DNA from: Planctomycetales bacterium | GTDB lineage: Bacteria > Planctomycetota > Planctomycetia > Isosphaerales > Isosphaeraceae | Direction of reading: 5' to 3' | DNA: 34,815 nucleotides | Assembly (NCBI GenBank): GCA_027451885.1 | Contig: DAIDHX010000045.1 | Coordinates: 1-34,815, forward strand | Part shown: positions 1 to 7,020 of the stretch, piece after piece | How positions within the stretch are numbered: position 1 is the first letter of the stretch | How the letters are laid out: the number at the start of each line of letters is the position of its first letter | Made by a program: the position numbers and the translations under genes | Notes under the pieces: model-generated | What the model was told of the DNA's origin: nothing | The model's input: the letters and a program-made list of their open reading frames with translations, nothing else | Database searches by the model: none

Positions 1-30
1 GTGCATGCCCGCGATCGAGAGAATTCGGGC

Positions 31-65
<35 letters not shown>

Positions 66-117
66 AGAGGGCGGAGGTAACGCGACCTAAACACTCCCGT
101 TGCCCCCGCTACTCGAC

Positions 118-1874: not shown

Positions 1875-2013
1875 GCGCGCCAACGGGCTCAGTTCGCGGC
1901 GGCTCCGGCCCGCCCGCGCTGCGATTCTCGCTGGGTGAAACCAGCCCAGCGTGAAAGCATCCCAGGGAAGAAATCAAACAGCTAACGGCCTCTGTTTGAC
2001 GTGGGCGGCGCTC

Positions 2014-3339
2014 ATGCTCCTCGAATTTCGCCTCGGTAACTTCCGGTCCTATGCCGCGGAGAAGCGTTTTAGCAGGGTTGCGGGATCCGGGAAGGAGCTT
2101 CCCGCGAACACGGTGACTGTTGAGGGGTTCAACCGCTCCCCGCTGCCACGGAGCGCAGTGATTTACGGAGCCAATGCTTCGGGAAAGAGCAACCTTGTCC
2201 AGGCGTTTGCCTTCTTCCGGCACTTCGTGCTTCACTCCTCCGAGACGCGACAAGAGGGGGACTGGATACCTGTGTACCCCTTCTTGCTCGACCCGAAACT
2301 CGCCAGGGATCCGAGTCACTTCGAGATGACGTTTCTCCTGGGGGGCGTGCGCCATCAATATGGGTTCGTCGTGTCTCGGGAGCGTGTGCACGAGGAATGG
2401 CTGACGGTTTATCCCAGGGGTAAGCCGCAGGAATGGTTCCACCGGACCGTGGACCTGAAGGGGAAATCCACATGGGCCTGGAGCCGGACTCACCTCCGCG
2501 GAGCCAAATTGCAGCTCGCCGAGCGTACCCGGGAGAACGCCCTTTTTCTTTCGGTCGCGGCCCAGTGGAACCATACGCAGATCAAACCGGTCTATCACGG
2601 GTTCCGCGGCAAGCTCAAGGTCTTGCGCCGAGAGACCAACGTGATGGGACACACGCGAGCCCAGCTCCTCAGCAACCGGACGTTTCGCGAGTGGCTAACC
2701 AGGGTCCTGAAGGCGGCTGATATGGGAATCTGCCGGGTGCTCGCCAGGGAGAGCAAGAGCCATAAGGATCGTTTCCGTTTTCCGAGTGAGATGCCGGCCG
2801 AAATGGGGAGCCTGCTTTCGGATGAGTCCCCGGGCAAGCCCTGGGTGGAGGTTCGAACCACCCACCGCTTGCCTGGCACGCGCGGCGAGGTTGAGTGGGA
2901 CCTGGATCAGGAGTCGGACGGTACACAGCGGATGCTCGCGCTCCTTGGACCAATCCACGACGCGCTTCGGGATGGGGCGGTCCTGGTCATGGACGAGCTA
3001 GACACAATCCTACATGCTTATATGACCATGGCGCTTGTTCAGCTCTTCAGCCGTCCCACGACAAACCGAGGAAACGCCCAGCTTGTTTTCACGACGCACG
3101 ACACGAGCCTGTTGGACCCGACCCTCTTCCGCCGAGATCAGATCTGGTTCACTTCAAAGGACGGCTCAGGCCAGACGGATCTCTATTCGCTCGAGGACTT
3201 CAGCCCGAGGAAAGGAGAGGCGCTCCAGAAGGGGTATCTGGCTGGGAGGTACGGTGGGATCCCGGACCTTGTCGACCTTGAGTTTTCTCAAATTCAGAAG
3301 CCGCAGGGTGAGGCGGAACTCGTGAGCCCGGAAGGATGA
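2014..3339 (+). CDS. AAA family ATPase, RloA-like (AAA_15/AAA_21), predicted defence ATPase
   Basis: The 441-aa product starts with MLLEFRLGNFRSYAAEK, the usual beta-strand opening of overcoming-lysogeny/RecF-like ATPases of the AAA_15/AAA_21 group. This is why ATG 2014 is preferred over the in-frame GTG at 1951. Walker A is GANASGKS at residues 52-59. A signature-like segment SDGTQR sits at 301-306. Walker B is VLVMDELD at 323-330, and FTTHDTSLLD follows as the switch/H-loop. These are ABC-type ATPase features, intact and in order. The next gene encodes a RloB-type protein, and ATPases of this group are typically paired with RloB. By analogy with other AAA15 plus TOPRIM pairs such as PARIS, the ATPase may sense or scaffold an effector, but no activity can be read from sequence. 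Confidence 0.85.
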   Translation: MLLEFRLGNFRSYAAEKRFSRVAGSGKELPANTVTVEGFNRSPLPRSAVIYGANASGKSNLVQAFAFFRHFVLHSSETRQEGDWIPVYPFLLDPKLARDPSHFEMTFLLGGVRHQYGFVVSRERVHEEWLTVYPRGKPQEWFHRTVDLKGKSTWAWSRTHLRGAKLQLAERTRENALFLSVAAQWNHTQIKPVYHGFRGKLKVLRRETNVMGHTRAQLLSNRTFREWLTRVLKAADMGICRVLARESKSHKDRFRFPSEMPAEMGSLLSDESPGKPWVEVRTTHRLPGTRGEVEWDLDQESDGTQRMLALLGPIHDALRDGAVLVMDELDTILHAYMTMALVQLFSRPTTNRGNAQLVFTTHDTSLLDPTLFRRDQIWFTSKDGSGQTDLYSLEDFSPRKGEALQKGYLAGRYGGIPDLVDLEFSQIQKPQGEAELVSPEG

Positions 3340-3411
3340 ACCCGCCCGGCGCCTGGGTGTTCGGTTGCATGAAACGGGCATTGTTGCGGGCGTTGTTGGG
3401 GGGTGTATCGA

Positions 3412-4245
3412 GTGGGCAGGCGATCGCGCGTGAGACATGAGAGCGAGCTTGGCCGAAGCCAGCCATCACGAAGGCCGCGCGAGTGCATCCTGGTCGTCTG
3501 CGAGGGCGAGCAAATGGAGCCCAATTACCTCAAGGCTTCACGCAAGCGTATCAATCTGAGCACGCTCGACGCGGAAATCGTCGGTGAAGCGGCCGAGATT
3601 TTGGGCGTGGTGGAGGGAGCCAGGCGGCTGAAGGAGGAGCGTGAGGCCGCGTCGAGCGAGAGCGTGCGTCTTGCTCCCTGCGACGAGATCTGGCGCGTGG
3701 TCGACACCGAGAGGCGGAATGATAATCCATCCCGGGAGCGAGGCGTCGACCGCGCGTCCGCGCTCGGGTTCCGTCTCGCCTGGTCCAATCCATGCTTCGA
3801 TTACTGGCTACTGTTGCACTTTGAGCGGATCGGCCGCATTTTCGATGGATTTGCCGTACTCCGGCCGTTCCTGAGCAAGCACATCCCTCGCTATGAGAAG
3901 AGCAAGGACTACTCCAGGCAGCTTGCTCCGCGTCTCCCTACCGCAATCGAAAACTCCAGACACATCCATCGGGCGCAGTGGCAAGATACCCCGCGGCAGA
4001 TCGACTGTAATCCCGCCACCACTGGCCGCGAGCTCGTCGAACGGCTTATGGATGTTGCTGGGATCACGATCGCTGAATATCAGGCTCGTTACCCGATGCC
4101 AGGGACAAAGCCGAAGCAGACGAAGCTGAAGAGGACGAAGCGTGCCCGTCGTTCCTGGCTCGGAGCTTCTCGGTGTTCCTGGAGCGTCCTTGGGCTACCT
4201 GATGCGGCCGGTTGCGTGGGCTGGATTCGTGCGGCATCGAGCTGA
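3412..4245 (+). CDS. RloB-like protein (TOPRIM-like nuclease candidate)
   Basis: The product (about 277 aa) has the RloB hallmarks in order: a basic N-terminus (RRSRVRHESELGRSQPSRRPRE), the strand CILVVCEGEQMEPNYL with the acidic residue of CEGE, then EIWRVVDTERRND as a second acidic strand end, and NPCFDYWLLLHFE. The first two match a TOPRIM-like arrangement of a conserved Glu followed by Asp; the last is typical of the family. Start at GTG 3412 is chosen because a run of G at 3398-3403 sits 8 nt upstream; GTG 3403 is possible. It begins 72 bases after the ATPase gene on the same strand, so co-expression is likely. The last 40 or so residues are Lys/Arg/Ser/Trp-rich and unlike the family; a late frameshift or a natural tail are both possible. 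Confidence 0.8.
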   Translation: MGRRSRVRHESELGRSQPSRRPRECILVVCEGEQMEPNYLKASRKRINLSTLDAEIVGEAAEILGVVEGARRLKEEREAASSESVRLAPCDEIWRVVDTERRNDNPSRERGVDRASALGFRLAWSNPCFDYWLLLHFERIGRIFDGFAVLRPFLSKHIPRYEKSKDYSRQLAPRLPTAIENSRHIHRAQWQDTPRQIDCNPATTGRELVERLMDVAGITIAEYQARYPMPGTKPKQTKLKRTKRARRSWLGASRCSWSVLGLPDAAGCVGWIRAASS

Positions 4246-4492
4246 GCAAAAACGACCTACAGCGAGGCTGGAGGCATACCTGGCAAGCATTTTCACCACG
4301 CGGAGGAAAGGGCGCTGGCGTGGGTGACGGAAAGACGGGGCGCCTGGTGTGGGTTGTCGCGTGGGTGGGGCCGAATCTGCCGCGTGGGGCGGTCCGTTCC
4401 GCGCTCTTTCACCCCGCGGTCTTGACGCTGGCGGGATTTGGCCCAAACTAGTACTTGCGCTCTGGTTGGGCGCACTTTGAAGGAGATTGCGT

Positions 4493-5047
4493 ATGCGACT
4501 TCGTCTCGCGGCCGCGATCCCCGTCGTGGTGGCAACCATCGCAGTGGTGGGCGCCAGCAGGGCGGGAGATCCTGTGAAGTCTGGCCTCGGGATCGGTGAC
4601 ATTTGCGTTCCATTTGATGTGGACGACGTCACCGGGCCGAACAAGGGCACGACTCTCTGCTATCGCTGAAGGTACGGTTCCTCCCCGGTCGTTTGCGTGT
4701 TCGCCCGCGCAACGTCCGAACCCTTGGCCAGTCTGGTCAAGCAGATCGATGAGAAAATAGGCGAAAACAGCAAGCTCAAGGCGTTCGTCGTCTTGCTTGC
4801 GACGGACAGCAAGAAGGCTTCGAGCGAATTGTCCGAGCTCGCGAAGAAGCACGAGATCAAGCACGTCCCGCTCACGATGCTCGGCGAACCCGACGGTCCC
4901 CCCCAGTACGACCTCACGAAAGAGGCGGGAATCACGGTCCTGATGTGGCTCGATGGCAAGGTGAAGGTGAACCACGCCTACAAGGGCGAGTTGACCGACA
5001 AGGACATTCGCACCATCGTGGCTGACATTCCCAGGATTCTCGAGTAA
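4493..5047 (+). CDS. Exported thioredoxin-like protein with in-frame TGA: candidate CxxU selenoprotein (otherwise a nonsense-interrupted gene)
   Basis: Read from ATG 4493 (AGGAG at 4481-4485), the frame encodes a signal peptide (MRLRLAAAIPVVVATIAVVGASRAG) and a short domain up to TTLCYR, then a TGA at 4667-4669. It continues without another stop for 125 codons to TAA at 5045-5047. Continuing through TGA gives LCYR-x-RYGSSPVVCVFAR, then a thioredoxin-like alpha/beta domain ending in KVNHAYKGELTDKDIRTIVADIPRILE. From memory, planctomycete exported relatives have LCYRCKxG...PVVxVFAR, so the TGA falls on the second cysteine of a CxxC redox motif (C56, position 59). A SECIS-like hairpin follows at the right distance. 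The full length would be 184 residues. The downstream part has no plausible start or ribosome binding site of its own. Alternatives are a TGC/TGT-to-TGA nonsense mutation or a sequencing error. The gene ends at a strong terminator. Confidence 0.75.
4687..4717 (+). promoter_or_regulatory. Bacterial SECIS-like hairpin after the in-frame TGA
   Basis: The RNA can fold as follows: G4687-G4688 pair with C4716-C4717, a U-U mismatch follows, 4690-4693 (CGUU) pair with 4711-4714 (AACG), U4694 lies opposite G4709-C4710, 4695-4697 (GCG) pair with 4706-4708 (CGC), and the apical loop is UGUUCGCC (4698-4705). The stem starts 17 nt after the TGA and the loop 28 nt after it. Bacterial SECIS elements place the loop about 16-37 nt after UGA, with a G in the first two loop positions. 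The E. coli fdhF element has an unpaired U three pairs below a loop containing GU, as here. The structure is also protein-coding, so chance pairing in GC-rich DNA must be excluded. Confidence 0.5.
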
Positions 5048-5099
5048 GTCTGTGTCCCTCCTGCGGGGGGATTTCATAAGTTTTAGCCCGACCAGCGCA

Positions 5100-5138
5100 G
5101 GGGCGGCTCAGGAATGGACCTGGGCTGCCCCTTTGTGT
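5100..5138 (+). terminator. Intrinsic terminator after the thioredoxin-like gene
   Basis: A 13-bp stem (5100-5112 with 5119-5131, including two G-U pairs) encloses a six-base loop AATGGA and is followed by TTTGTGTT. It lies about 50 bases after the stop of the thioredoxin-like gene. This would end that transcript before the transposase homologue. Confidence 0.7.
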
Positions 5139-5288
5139 TGCGCAGCGGTGCGGGTTCGCGTGGTTTGCTGGCGGCGGTTGCCTGGTTTGGGCGTGGAAGC
5201 TGGGGGATTGCCCTGGCGTGGCGGCGGGGGGATAATCCGGGGCGTTGCGGCCTGAGAGAGAATGGGATTCTCGTGTGATTGAGTGTGC

Positions 5289-5993
5289 ATGCCAAGGGCA
5301 GCCCGATCGATTCCCGGCGGTTACGCGTACCACGTGTTGTGCTGTGGGCAGGGCGCGGATGTGGTTTTTCATGACGCGAGCGAGTTTGCCGCGTTTCAGG
5401 GATTGATGGCGGAGGCGTCGCTGCGTGTGGGGTTGCCTGTGGCGGCGTACTGTTTGCTGCCGAGCCAGGTTCGTCTTGTGCTTTTGCCGCGTGGCGATGG
5501 CGTGGTGAGCCGCTGGATGCACTGGTTGTTGACGACGCATGCGAGCCGTTACCGGCAGCGGCATGGCACGCGTGGGCCGATCTGGCGCGGGCGGTTCCGG
5601 GCGTTTCCGATCGAGACGGGGGAGCCGCTGGCGGCTGTGATCCGCCATGTGGAGCGGAATCCGCGGTGTGCGGGGCTGGTGCCGCGGGCGGAGGATTGGC
5701 GGTGGTCGAGCCTGTGCTGGCGGAGCGCGCCCGAGCATGCGCCCGTGCGGCTTGAGCGGATCCCGCAGGTGGATCAGCCGGGCTGGGGGGCGAAGGTGGA
5801 ACGGGGGCTGTGCGAGGCGGAGCTTGAACAGATCGCGGTCTCGATCCGCCGCGGCCGACCATTTGGTTCCTCGTCCTGGGTGCGAGAGACGGTTTTGAGG
5901 CTGGGGCTGGAATCGAGCGTGCGTCCCCGCGGCCGCCCGCGCCTGGAAGCGGGGGAGAGTCTGGACACGCGCGACCGCCTGGGAACGCGCTAG
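5289..5993 (+). CDS. IS200-like / REP-associated transposase homologue with all catalytic residues replaced
   Basis: The 234-aa product aligns along its length with Y1-type transposases of the RAYT group common in planctomycetes: PRAARSIPGGYAYHVL at the start, YCLLPSQVRLVLLP in the middle, RGRFRAFPIET, VIRHVERNPRCAGLVPRAEDWRWSSL, and RGRPFGSSSW...LGLESSVRPRGRPR at the end. The usual HUH motif (NHWH) is SQVR here, so the histidines are Gln60 and Arg62. The Tyr of RYVERN is His120. The frame is nevertheless uninterrupted, which suggests it is kept for something other than transposition, for instance DNA binding, or that it decayed recently by substitutions only. I saw no clear flanking REP palindromes. 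It stands 82 bases upstream of ribF. The start at ATG 5289 lacks a clear ribosome binding site. Confidence 0.8.
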   Translation: MPRAARSIPGGYAYHVLCCGQGADVVFHDASEFAAFQGLMAEASLRVGLPVAAYCLLPSQVRLVLLPRGDGVVSRWMHWLLTTHASRYRQRHGTRGPIWRGRFRAFPIETGEPLAAVIRHVERNPRCAGLVPRAEDWRWSSLCWRSAPEHAPVRLERIPQVDQPGWGAKVERGLCEAELEQIAVSIRRGRPFGSSSWVRETVLRLGLESSVRPRGRPRLEAGESLDTRDRLGTR

Positions 5994-6075
5994 AGGCTCG
6001 TCGCGGCTGGTTGGTTACAATAAGAGACGAGCGGGGTTGTGAGCATGGACCTGGAGGCGAGGGGGATAGGGCGCG

Positions 6076-7020
6076 GTGATCTTGATCAGTGAGGCGCGGG
6101 AGTTTCCCTCGAGCTGGCGGGGATGTTTCGTCACGGTCGGCAATTTCGATGGGGTGCATCTGGGGCACCGGGCCTTGATCGACCGGCTTCGCGCCCGCGC
6201 GGGCGCGAGCAGCGCCCGGGCGCTGGTGTTGACGTTTCAACCGCATCCCGCGTCGATTCTGCGTCCTCAACTGGCGCCTGAGCCGTTGGTCTGGCCTGCG
6301 CGCGAGGTCGAGCTGCTCGAGCAGGCTGGGGCGGACGAGGTCGGTGTGTTTGCCACGGGGCCGTGGTTGCTGTCGATGTCCGCGCGGCAGTTCTTTGACG
6401 AGATCCTGCGTGGGTTGGTCGGGGCGCGGGGGCTTGTGGAGGGGCCGAATTTCGCATTTGGGCAGGATCGTCAGGGGGGCGTGGCGAATCTGGCGGAATG
6501 GAGCGCGGCGGCGGGGATGGAGTTTGAGGTCGTGGAGGCTGCGCGGGTGGGGGATGGGTTGGTGTCGTCGTCGCGGATACGCGAGTGCATCCGGGCGGGG
6601 GATGTTGCGCTTGCGACCCAGCTTCTCGGCCGCCCGCACCGGATCCGCGGCACCGTGGGCGTCGGCGCGGGCCGAGGCGCGCGCATCGGATATCCCACGG
6701 CCAATCTGGGGCAGGTCGAGGTGATTCTACCCGGCGACGGCGTTTACGCCGCGCTCGCCTCGATCGACGGCCAAACCAGGCGCTTCGCCGCTGCGTGCAA
6801 CCTGGGGCCAAACCCCACCTTTGGCGAATCCGCGCGCAAGATCGAAGCGCACCTGATCGGCTTCGAGGGCGATCTCAGGGGCCGGCGAATCGAGCTCGAT
6901 TTCCTGGCTCGCCTGCGGTCGACCGTGCGATTCGCGAGCAAGGATGCACTTCTGGAGCAGCTTGCCATCGACGTCAAACGCGCGGGCGAAGTCGCGCAGG
7001 CCCATTCTGCCACTCCGTAG
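6076..7020 (+). CDS. ribF: Bifunctional riboflavin kinase / FMN adenylyltransferase
   Basis: The 314-aa cytoplasmic enzyme makes FMN from riboflavin and then FAD from FMN. The N-terminal adenylyltransferase domain carries the nucleotidyltransferase motif VGNFDGVHLGH (residues 21-31), FQPHP, a diverged LVEGPNFAFGQDRQG segment, and SSSRIR near residue 160. The C-terminal kinase domain begins near residue 188 with IRGTVGVGAGRGARIGYPTANL, then DGVYAAL and CNLGPNPTFGE. Length is typical. The start is GTG 6076, preceded by a purine-rich stretch (GAGGCGAGGGGGATAGG) that serves as ribosome binding site. It stands alone between the transposase homologue and the DUF1570 gene. Both domains look intact. 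Confidence 0.93.
   Translation: MILISEAREFPSSWRGCFVTVGNFDGVHLGHRALIDRLRARAGASSARALVLTFQPHPASILRPQLAPEPLVWPAREVELLEQAGADEVGVFATGPWLLSMSARQFFDEILRGLVGARGLVEGPNFAFGQDRQGGVANLAEWSAAAGMEFEVVEAARVGDGLVSSSRIRECIRAGDVALATQLLGRPHRIRGTVGVGAGRGARIGYPTANLGQVEVILPGDGVYAALASIDGQTRRFAAACNLGPNPTFGESARKIEAHLIGFEGDLRGRRIELDFLARLRSTVRFASKDALLEQLAIDVKRAGEVAQAHSATP

Follow-up and report, generated by a model that had tools for sequence, protein, structure and literature searches.

Domestication of RAYT proteins is usually argued for members that retain their nuclease, and among the IS200/IS605-type elements the TldR proteins are nuclease-dead derivatives of TnpB that are used as repressors and are conserved across species. 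The RAYTs and TIRYTs aligned in the available parts of two publications conserve both the HUH motif and the catalytic tyrosine (PMC3733652, PMC6006769), the latter having selected sequences with both motifs, and the same sources give a terminal motif, GGGGWSAS. For TnpA-REP of E. coli, as far as the available text goes, N119 is described as the third metal ligand (PMC6006769), Y115F as a catalytic mutant and Q95 as one of the residues contacting GTAG (PMC8266576). A literature search for a dead RAYT or Y1 protein found no report in titles and abstract openings, which is not proof of absence.

The gene described here (the target) lies in a window of 34,815 nucleotides, the whole stretch of DNA that was analysed, from the assembly GCA_027451885.1 of a Planctomycetales bacterium (contig DAIDHX010000045.1). 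With the TIRYTs (TnpA-Y1 subclass 2.1, with a C-terminal helix-turn-helix-like domain) its product shares a Y1 core and a conserved C-terminal helical extension, and some of its close homologues carry GGGGACAG-type ends that resemble GGGGWSAS as given in the published text, whereas the target itself has neither HUH, Tyr nor such ends. E. coli TnpA-REP (a RAYT, PDB 4ER8) has the same predicted fold and aligns with residues 8–146, but the equivalents of its HUH motif, Tyr115 and Gln95 are replaced in the target, which has about 90 extra C-terminal residues and no REP palindromes around it. The proposed likeness to TldR is that in both cases a nuclease of an IS200/IS605-type element would have lost the active site but persisted as a regulator that binds DNA; the differences are that TldR derives from the RNA-guided TnpB and not from TnpA, and that cross-species conservation is known for TldR while no orthologue with the substitutions of the target was found in the genomes searched. 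We lean, with slightly better than even confidence, towards the target being an immobile, nuclease-dead descendant of an RAYT/TIRYT-type HUH transposase that is kept under constraint as a DNA-binding protein.

The locus and its neighbours

The thioredoxin-like gene, a hairpin, the target and ribF follow each other on the same strand (Table 1), and translation of the target gives 234 residues with a single terminal stop and no internal stops. The GC content at third codon positions is 0.79, the same as in ribF, the pI is about 10.6 (median of the other homologues 10.2) and the protein contains six cysteines compared with at most four in other homologues. The genome amounts to 6.18 Mb in 316 contigs and is 98% complete. 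An Rfam scan gave no match at the target gene.

The upstream gene is likely to encode a CxxU selenoprotein, CYR-TGA-RYG, and is listed as a candidate. TGA stands at this codon in 20 of the 30 loci read (own included) and TGC (Cys) in the other 10, which belong to other families of the class, and the own genome has selB above cut-off together with a tRNA-Sec (anticodon TCA). Compared with shuffled sequences the hairpin that follows the TGA has little stability (z -1.1), and a CYRU family was not seen in the available text of a review of prokaryotic selenoproteins (PMC9312934). Further upstream a pair of genes was identified which, judged by its profile matches, is likely an AbiL-type phage-defence system, and a group II intron RNA is situated near the contig start.

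Table 1. Features of the window and of related loci (coordinates without a contig refer to the window)
Feature	Coordinates	Strand	Basis or remark
Group II intron RNA	29..117	+	Rfam, 48.9 bits against a gathering score of 40
AAA_21 ATPase and RloB pair	1951..4245	+	PADLOC AbiLi and AbiLii matches, E 2.7e-93 and 5.9e-22
Secreted-looking thioredoxin-like protein	4487..5047	+	Judged by eye; Pfam gave nothing above cut-off
Candidate selenocysteine codon, TGA	4667..4669	+	
Terminator-like hairpin, 14 pairs	5099..5132	+	Between upstream gene and target
Sigma-70-like promoter match	5208..5236	+	Consensus match only
RAYT/TIRYT-like Y1 homologue, putatively catalytically dead	5289..5993	+	234 codons plus stop; translation, NCBIfam, alignment
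Residues 18–21, CCGQ against NRGN of relatives, end of strand beta1	5340..5351	+	Alignment
Residues 59–62, SQVR against NHFH of relatives, HUH motif lost	5463..5474	+	Alignment
Residues 97–100, P..R against H..Q of relatives; Q100 = E. coli Q95	5577..5588	+	Alignment; PMC8266576 (available text)
Codon 120, His replacing the nucleophilic Tyr (= E. coli Y115)	5646..5648	+	Alignment
Codon 124, Asn kept (= E. coli N119, third metal ligand)	5658..5660	+	Alignment; PMC6006769 (available text)
C-terminal three-helix segment, residues 166–205	5784..5903	+	AlphaFold2 model and conservation; near-invariant RGRPFG and W kept
PRGRP core, residues 213–217, AT-hook-like tail	5925..5939	+	Seen in 38 of the 51 homologues counted, the target among them
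ribF	6076..7020	+	
Homologue L024	G077:C124:40080-40745	-	Catalytic Tyr to Phe, HUH intact
Longer subfamily, L143 (own genome)	G000:C58:55789-56736		HLH kept, FIDLVP for YIDLNP: Tyr to Phe, Asn to Val
Longer subfamily, L145	G008		H to R, N to L
Longer subfamily, L149	G002		H to Q, Y to S, N to I
Longer subfamily, L158	G016		Both H lost, N to C
Longer subfamily, L164	G001		H to Q, N to A; tyrosine still present

Family, active site and fold

The NCBIfam profile REP_Tyr_transpos matches residues 11–140 (profile positions 9–146) with an E value of 3.5e-9 and 36.7 bits against a cut-off of 80 bits, Pfam Y1_Tnp is marginal (13.2 bits, cut-off 23) and the nearest other protein is 51% identical over 223 residues. 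Going by sequence homology over the Y1 core, the target is a Y1/RAYT-TIRYT transposase by descent. A profile of 41 members aligns 4ER8 with an E value of 2e-11, covering the residues of the target given above, and from this alignment the equivalences Y120 = Y115, N124 = N119 and Q100 = Q95 were obtained.

When residue states were read by column in 53 aligned proteins, the target included, His was found at position 60 in 52 and at position 62 likewise in 52, with Gln60 and Arg62 occurring only in the target, while position 120 is Tyr in 51, Phe in L024 and His only in the target. Position 100, which contacts the REP GTAG in E. coli, is Gln in 50 of the 53 and Arg in the target, positions 18 and 19 (the NR of NRGN) are CC in the target, and position 124, the third metal ligand, is Asn in all 53. 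The first-pass annotation had described SQVR (Gln60, Arg62) and His120 in an intact 234-codon frame with the C-terminal RGRPFG...LGLESxxRPRGRPR retained; all of this is present as described, and the substitutions are unique among the 53 proteins. Its claim that every catalytic residue is lost holds for the HUH histidines and the Tyr but is too strong because N124 is retained, the losses being the nucleophile, two of the three metal ligands and one recognition residue. With the HUH histidines, the nucleophilic Tyr and the NR/Q residues replaced, single-strand nicks would be neither made nor resealed, and since the catalytic residues are lost no cleavage by the target is expected. Its catalytic death is, in our judgement, nearly certain.

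An AlphaFold2 model was built from six sequences, with homologues that have intact sites, and gave a mean pLDDT of 67 (about 75–90 for core residues, about 70 for the C-terminal helices). The preservation of the fold, which structure prediction had been proposed to check, is supported at the level of the model, since Foldseek ranked 4ER8 first (probability 1.00, TM by target 0.61), followed by the ISDra2 and IS608 transposases; as the model is driven by the homologues this indicates that the target is compatible with the fold and is no proof of folding. By sequence, the open frame is kept along with the hydrophobic core and a basic C-terminal domain, and retention of the fold is predicted.

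The PRGRP core, found near the C-terminus of the short Y1 subfamily, resembles an AT-hook; Pfam AT_hook matched 2 of the 41 members scanned, both weakly, and as an AT-hook the tail is a suggestive motif only. The loss of the GTAG-contacting Gln and of the NR pair in beta1 makes canonical REP-hairpin recognition unlikely, and binding would therefore probably be by the C-terminal half, in a non-catalytic manner, through the helical domain and the PRGRP tail. That DNA binding is the retained function we put a little below an even chance. A local repressor, an architectural protein or a competitor at target repeats are possible roles.

Relatives, substitutions and the question of decay

Matches at E<=0.001 were found in 67 of the 99 genomes searched (own included), many of them multicopy and several with internal stops. 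The main alternative to a protein kept under constraint is a dying copy without catalysis whose frame has drifted unselected only recently, remaining free of stops by chance in GC-rich sequence; we hold this to be possible but doubtful. It is favoured by the lack of orthologues: when the search was extended to genomes of the family (45), the class (397) and the phylum (392), neither an orthologue with the substitutions of the target nor a relative closer than the 51% match was found among the matches listed (in the class and phylum draws at most seven candidates per genome were scored and matches were listed at E <= 1e-50 and 1e-60). The same is true of copy number, as the target is single-copy in its genome, where the other matches are very weak (E 0.01 and 0.07). 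A search of genome contigs returned seven loci and no close relative of the target, and one of viral contigs a single partial match. The orthologues sharing the substitutions, which had been suggested as a check and whose absence had been named beforehand as a sign of a recently dead copy, were thus not recovered, nor was a conserved position upstream of ribF, as no copy of the target and no other Y1 gene was present in the flanking sequence fetched (at most 1.5 kb) for 29 ribF loci other than its own.

When analysing the surroundings of the target no inverted repeat pair bracketing it was found in 4900–6300, nothing REP-like was seen in the flanks searched and no GGGGWSAS-type end occurs within 400 bp. 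Such an end is found in the expected orientation in 17 of 52 homologues and is missing in 35, and its absence is only weakly informative because the 17 arise partly by chance, which by a hand estimate gives a sizeable share. The sequence GGGGACAGGCAC is located upstream of L005, L088 and L089, and a similar end in reverse complement downstream of L084 and L089. With no REP pair, no GGGGWSAS ends and the residues that read the foot of the REP gone, a role outside REP biology is likelier than REP capping.

Conservation was judged from 49 other proteins, the homologues L018, L025 and L035 being left out. At 43 columns that are at least 95% conserved in these the target departs at 11 (N18C, R19C, D32E, H60Q, H62R, H97P, Q100R, K104R, H113P, Y120H and N171E), compared with a mean of 1.1 and a maximum of 8 in the others, and none of the nine columns conserved to this degree in residues 180–234 is altered. 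D32E and N171E, together with R127C, are changes of conserved non-catalytic residues and as such count for a dying copy. In the codon data 25 of 89 slow sites (start Met excluded) are altered, and the changes fall on polar rather than core positions (18 of 38 polar against 7 of 51 non-polar sites, Fisher p=0.0007), a bias which argues against such a copy, and to a weaker degree on the four catalytic or REP-contacting segments (13 of 30 against 12 of 59 elsewhere, p=0.027), these p-values being generous because segments and polar/non-polar split were chosen after the changes had been seen; no significant contrast was obtained for the C-terminus (p=0.22). The terminal branch of the target is long, at 1.7 changes per column where the median is 0.24 (in a tree excluding L018 and L025), and yet carries no stops, which again speaks against decay, although a single change could produce a stop in only 61 of the 234 codons.

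The codon data comprised 218 codons from 22 of the 53 taxa, with three background site classes fitted on the 21 other taxa, and synonymous sites on the target branch are saturated. Constant selection gave lnL -635.0 and neutrality throughout -637.8 (-642.0 with a stop penalty), whereas selection followed by neutrality reached -627.5 (-629.3 with the penalty), a gain of 7.5 units over constant selection that is in line with a dying copy. Uniform relaxation gave -621.7, and the best model was one in which a fraction of the sites is released and the remainder constrained as before (-618.5, r=0.35), ahead of selection followed by neutrality by 9–10.7 units with the same number of parameters, which argues against late death. 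With a 10% heterogeneity baseline release still leads late death by 4.4 units and none of 100 parametric bootstrap simulations was as extreme, and four site classes give the same picture (-618.7 against -627.4/-629.4). For 21 other branches the same test gave r of 0–0.10, no gain from a neutral phase and a gain of release over constant selection of at most 7.9. After the catalytic loss constraint would have remained on roughly two thirds of the codons.

A neutral period of the whole gene amounting to 2–3.6 substitutions per codon is expected to leave 10–18 stops, where none is observed, and within the best late-neutral phase (t2 0.34–0.42) the joint chance of the changes at H60, H62 and Y120 is 1.3–2.2%. 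Adding a neutral phase at the end of the branch lowers lnL by only about 1–1.4 units if its length is ~0.1 substitutions per codon and by 2.2–3.2 if it is 0.2, so a recent late phase of about 0.1 per codon is compatible with the data. Recent death is moreover invisible to the codon test, since L008 and L012, with one real internal stop each, show no neutral phase (L021 shows a weak one), and internal stops are common among the homologues of the family, both of which leave room for a dying copy. L032, in which HUH and Tyr are intact, favours release even more strongly (r=0.27, gain of 13.4 over late death), and the signal therefore means fast but constrained evolution and not exaptation in particular. 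We read the history of the target as long, fast, but constrained, most simply that of a protein kept without its nuclease, and a retained function is in our judgement rather probable. Exaptation, which the first-pass annotation had preferred to simple decay, is partly supported: fold residues are kept and constraint fits better than pure neutrality, but no orthologue with the substitutions was found in the genomes searched, synonymous sites on the target branch are saturated and L032 shares the branch signal, so that it stands as the better-supported reading and not as a demonstrated one.

Alternatively the target could act on an active relative encoded by this genome, either as its partner or as its competitor, through dead heterodimers or by occupying its targets. 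Further Y1 relatives do occur here, one long copy split over C6/C61 that looks intact and one on C58 with Phe in place of Tyr, and IS200-type transposases work as dimers according to the available text of PMC6006769, but these copies are of a different, longer subfamily with the very weak similarity given above, mixed dimers with the target are therefore unlikely, and we find the explanation improbable. Dominant-negative interference with a close sibling was given little weight, as the genome has none that is intact. That the target is a divergent transposase still active through a rewired site, with for instance His120 or another residue as nucleophile, is very improbable, since both metal-binding histidines, the nucleophile and the REP-contacting residues are gone in one protein, which has no other copies in the genome and no GGGGWSAS-type end nearby (as in most homologues), even if N124 and several basic residues are kept and L032 illustrates fast, constrained evolution with catalysis intact.

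Parallel losses in a longer subfamily

The search for siblings in the own genome led to a longer Y1 subfamily of about 340–400 residues, in which 16 loci (own C58 included) have a stop-free alignment covering both motifs in one piece. Catalytic residues are lost in five of the 16 and the metal-ligand Asn is absent in all five (Table 1), while the own-genome copy split over C6 and C61 (L156) is apparently intact. L149 and L164, from two species of one genus, are sisters in the tree (100/98), L143 is the sister of L156, the intact-looking copy of the same genome, so that the label of catalytic loss must have changed at least twice in the tree. Comparison of L149 with L164 gave an omega of 0.112 (lnL -2206.3, against -2299.1 at omega 1, worse by 93 units), which shows that this pair is under purifying selection; for three pairs of intact copies of the subfamily omega is 0.02–0.06. 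As L164 keeps its tyrosine the date of the catalytic loss within the pair is not fixed. The tree makes the two sisters but does not place them at one locus, and their contigs as fetched (6.9 and 8.2 kb) have no other gene in common.

Open frames in which the active site is incomplete thus recur in this bacterial family, and the target looks like one instance of this. A wider reading is that Y1 HUH transposases in the family repeatedly become nuclease-dead proteins under purifying selection with fold and C-terminal domain kept; this would comprise the target in the short subfamily and at least two separate origins in the longer one (C58 and G001/G002, with G008 and G016 in addition), and we consider it tentative and rather unlikely. 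If the target is just a dying copy, it amounts to an ordinary future pseudogene. If, however, the nuclease was lost, constraint was kept and the relatives are true parallels, the DNA-binding role of these proteins would be separable from cleavage and they would offer testable candidates for transposase-derived bacterial regulators, and repeated conversion, if true, would be the TnpA counterpart of the dead regulators derived from TnpB.
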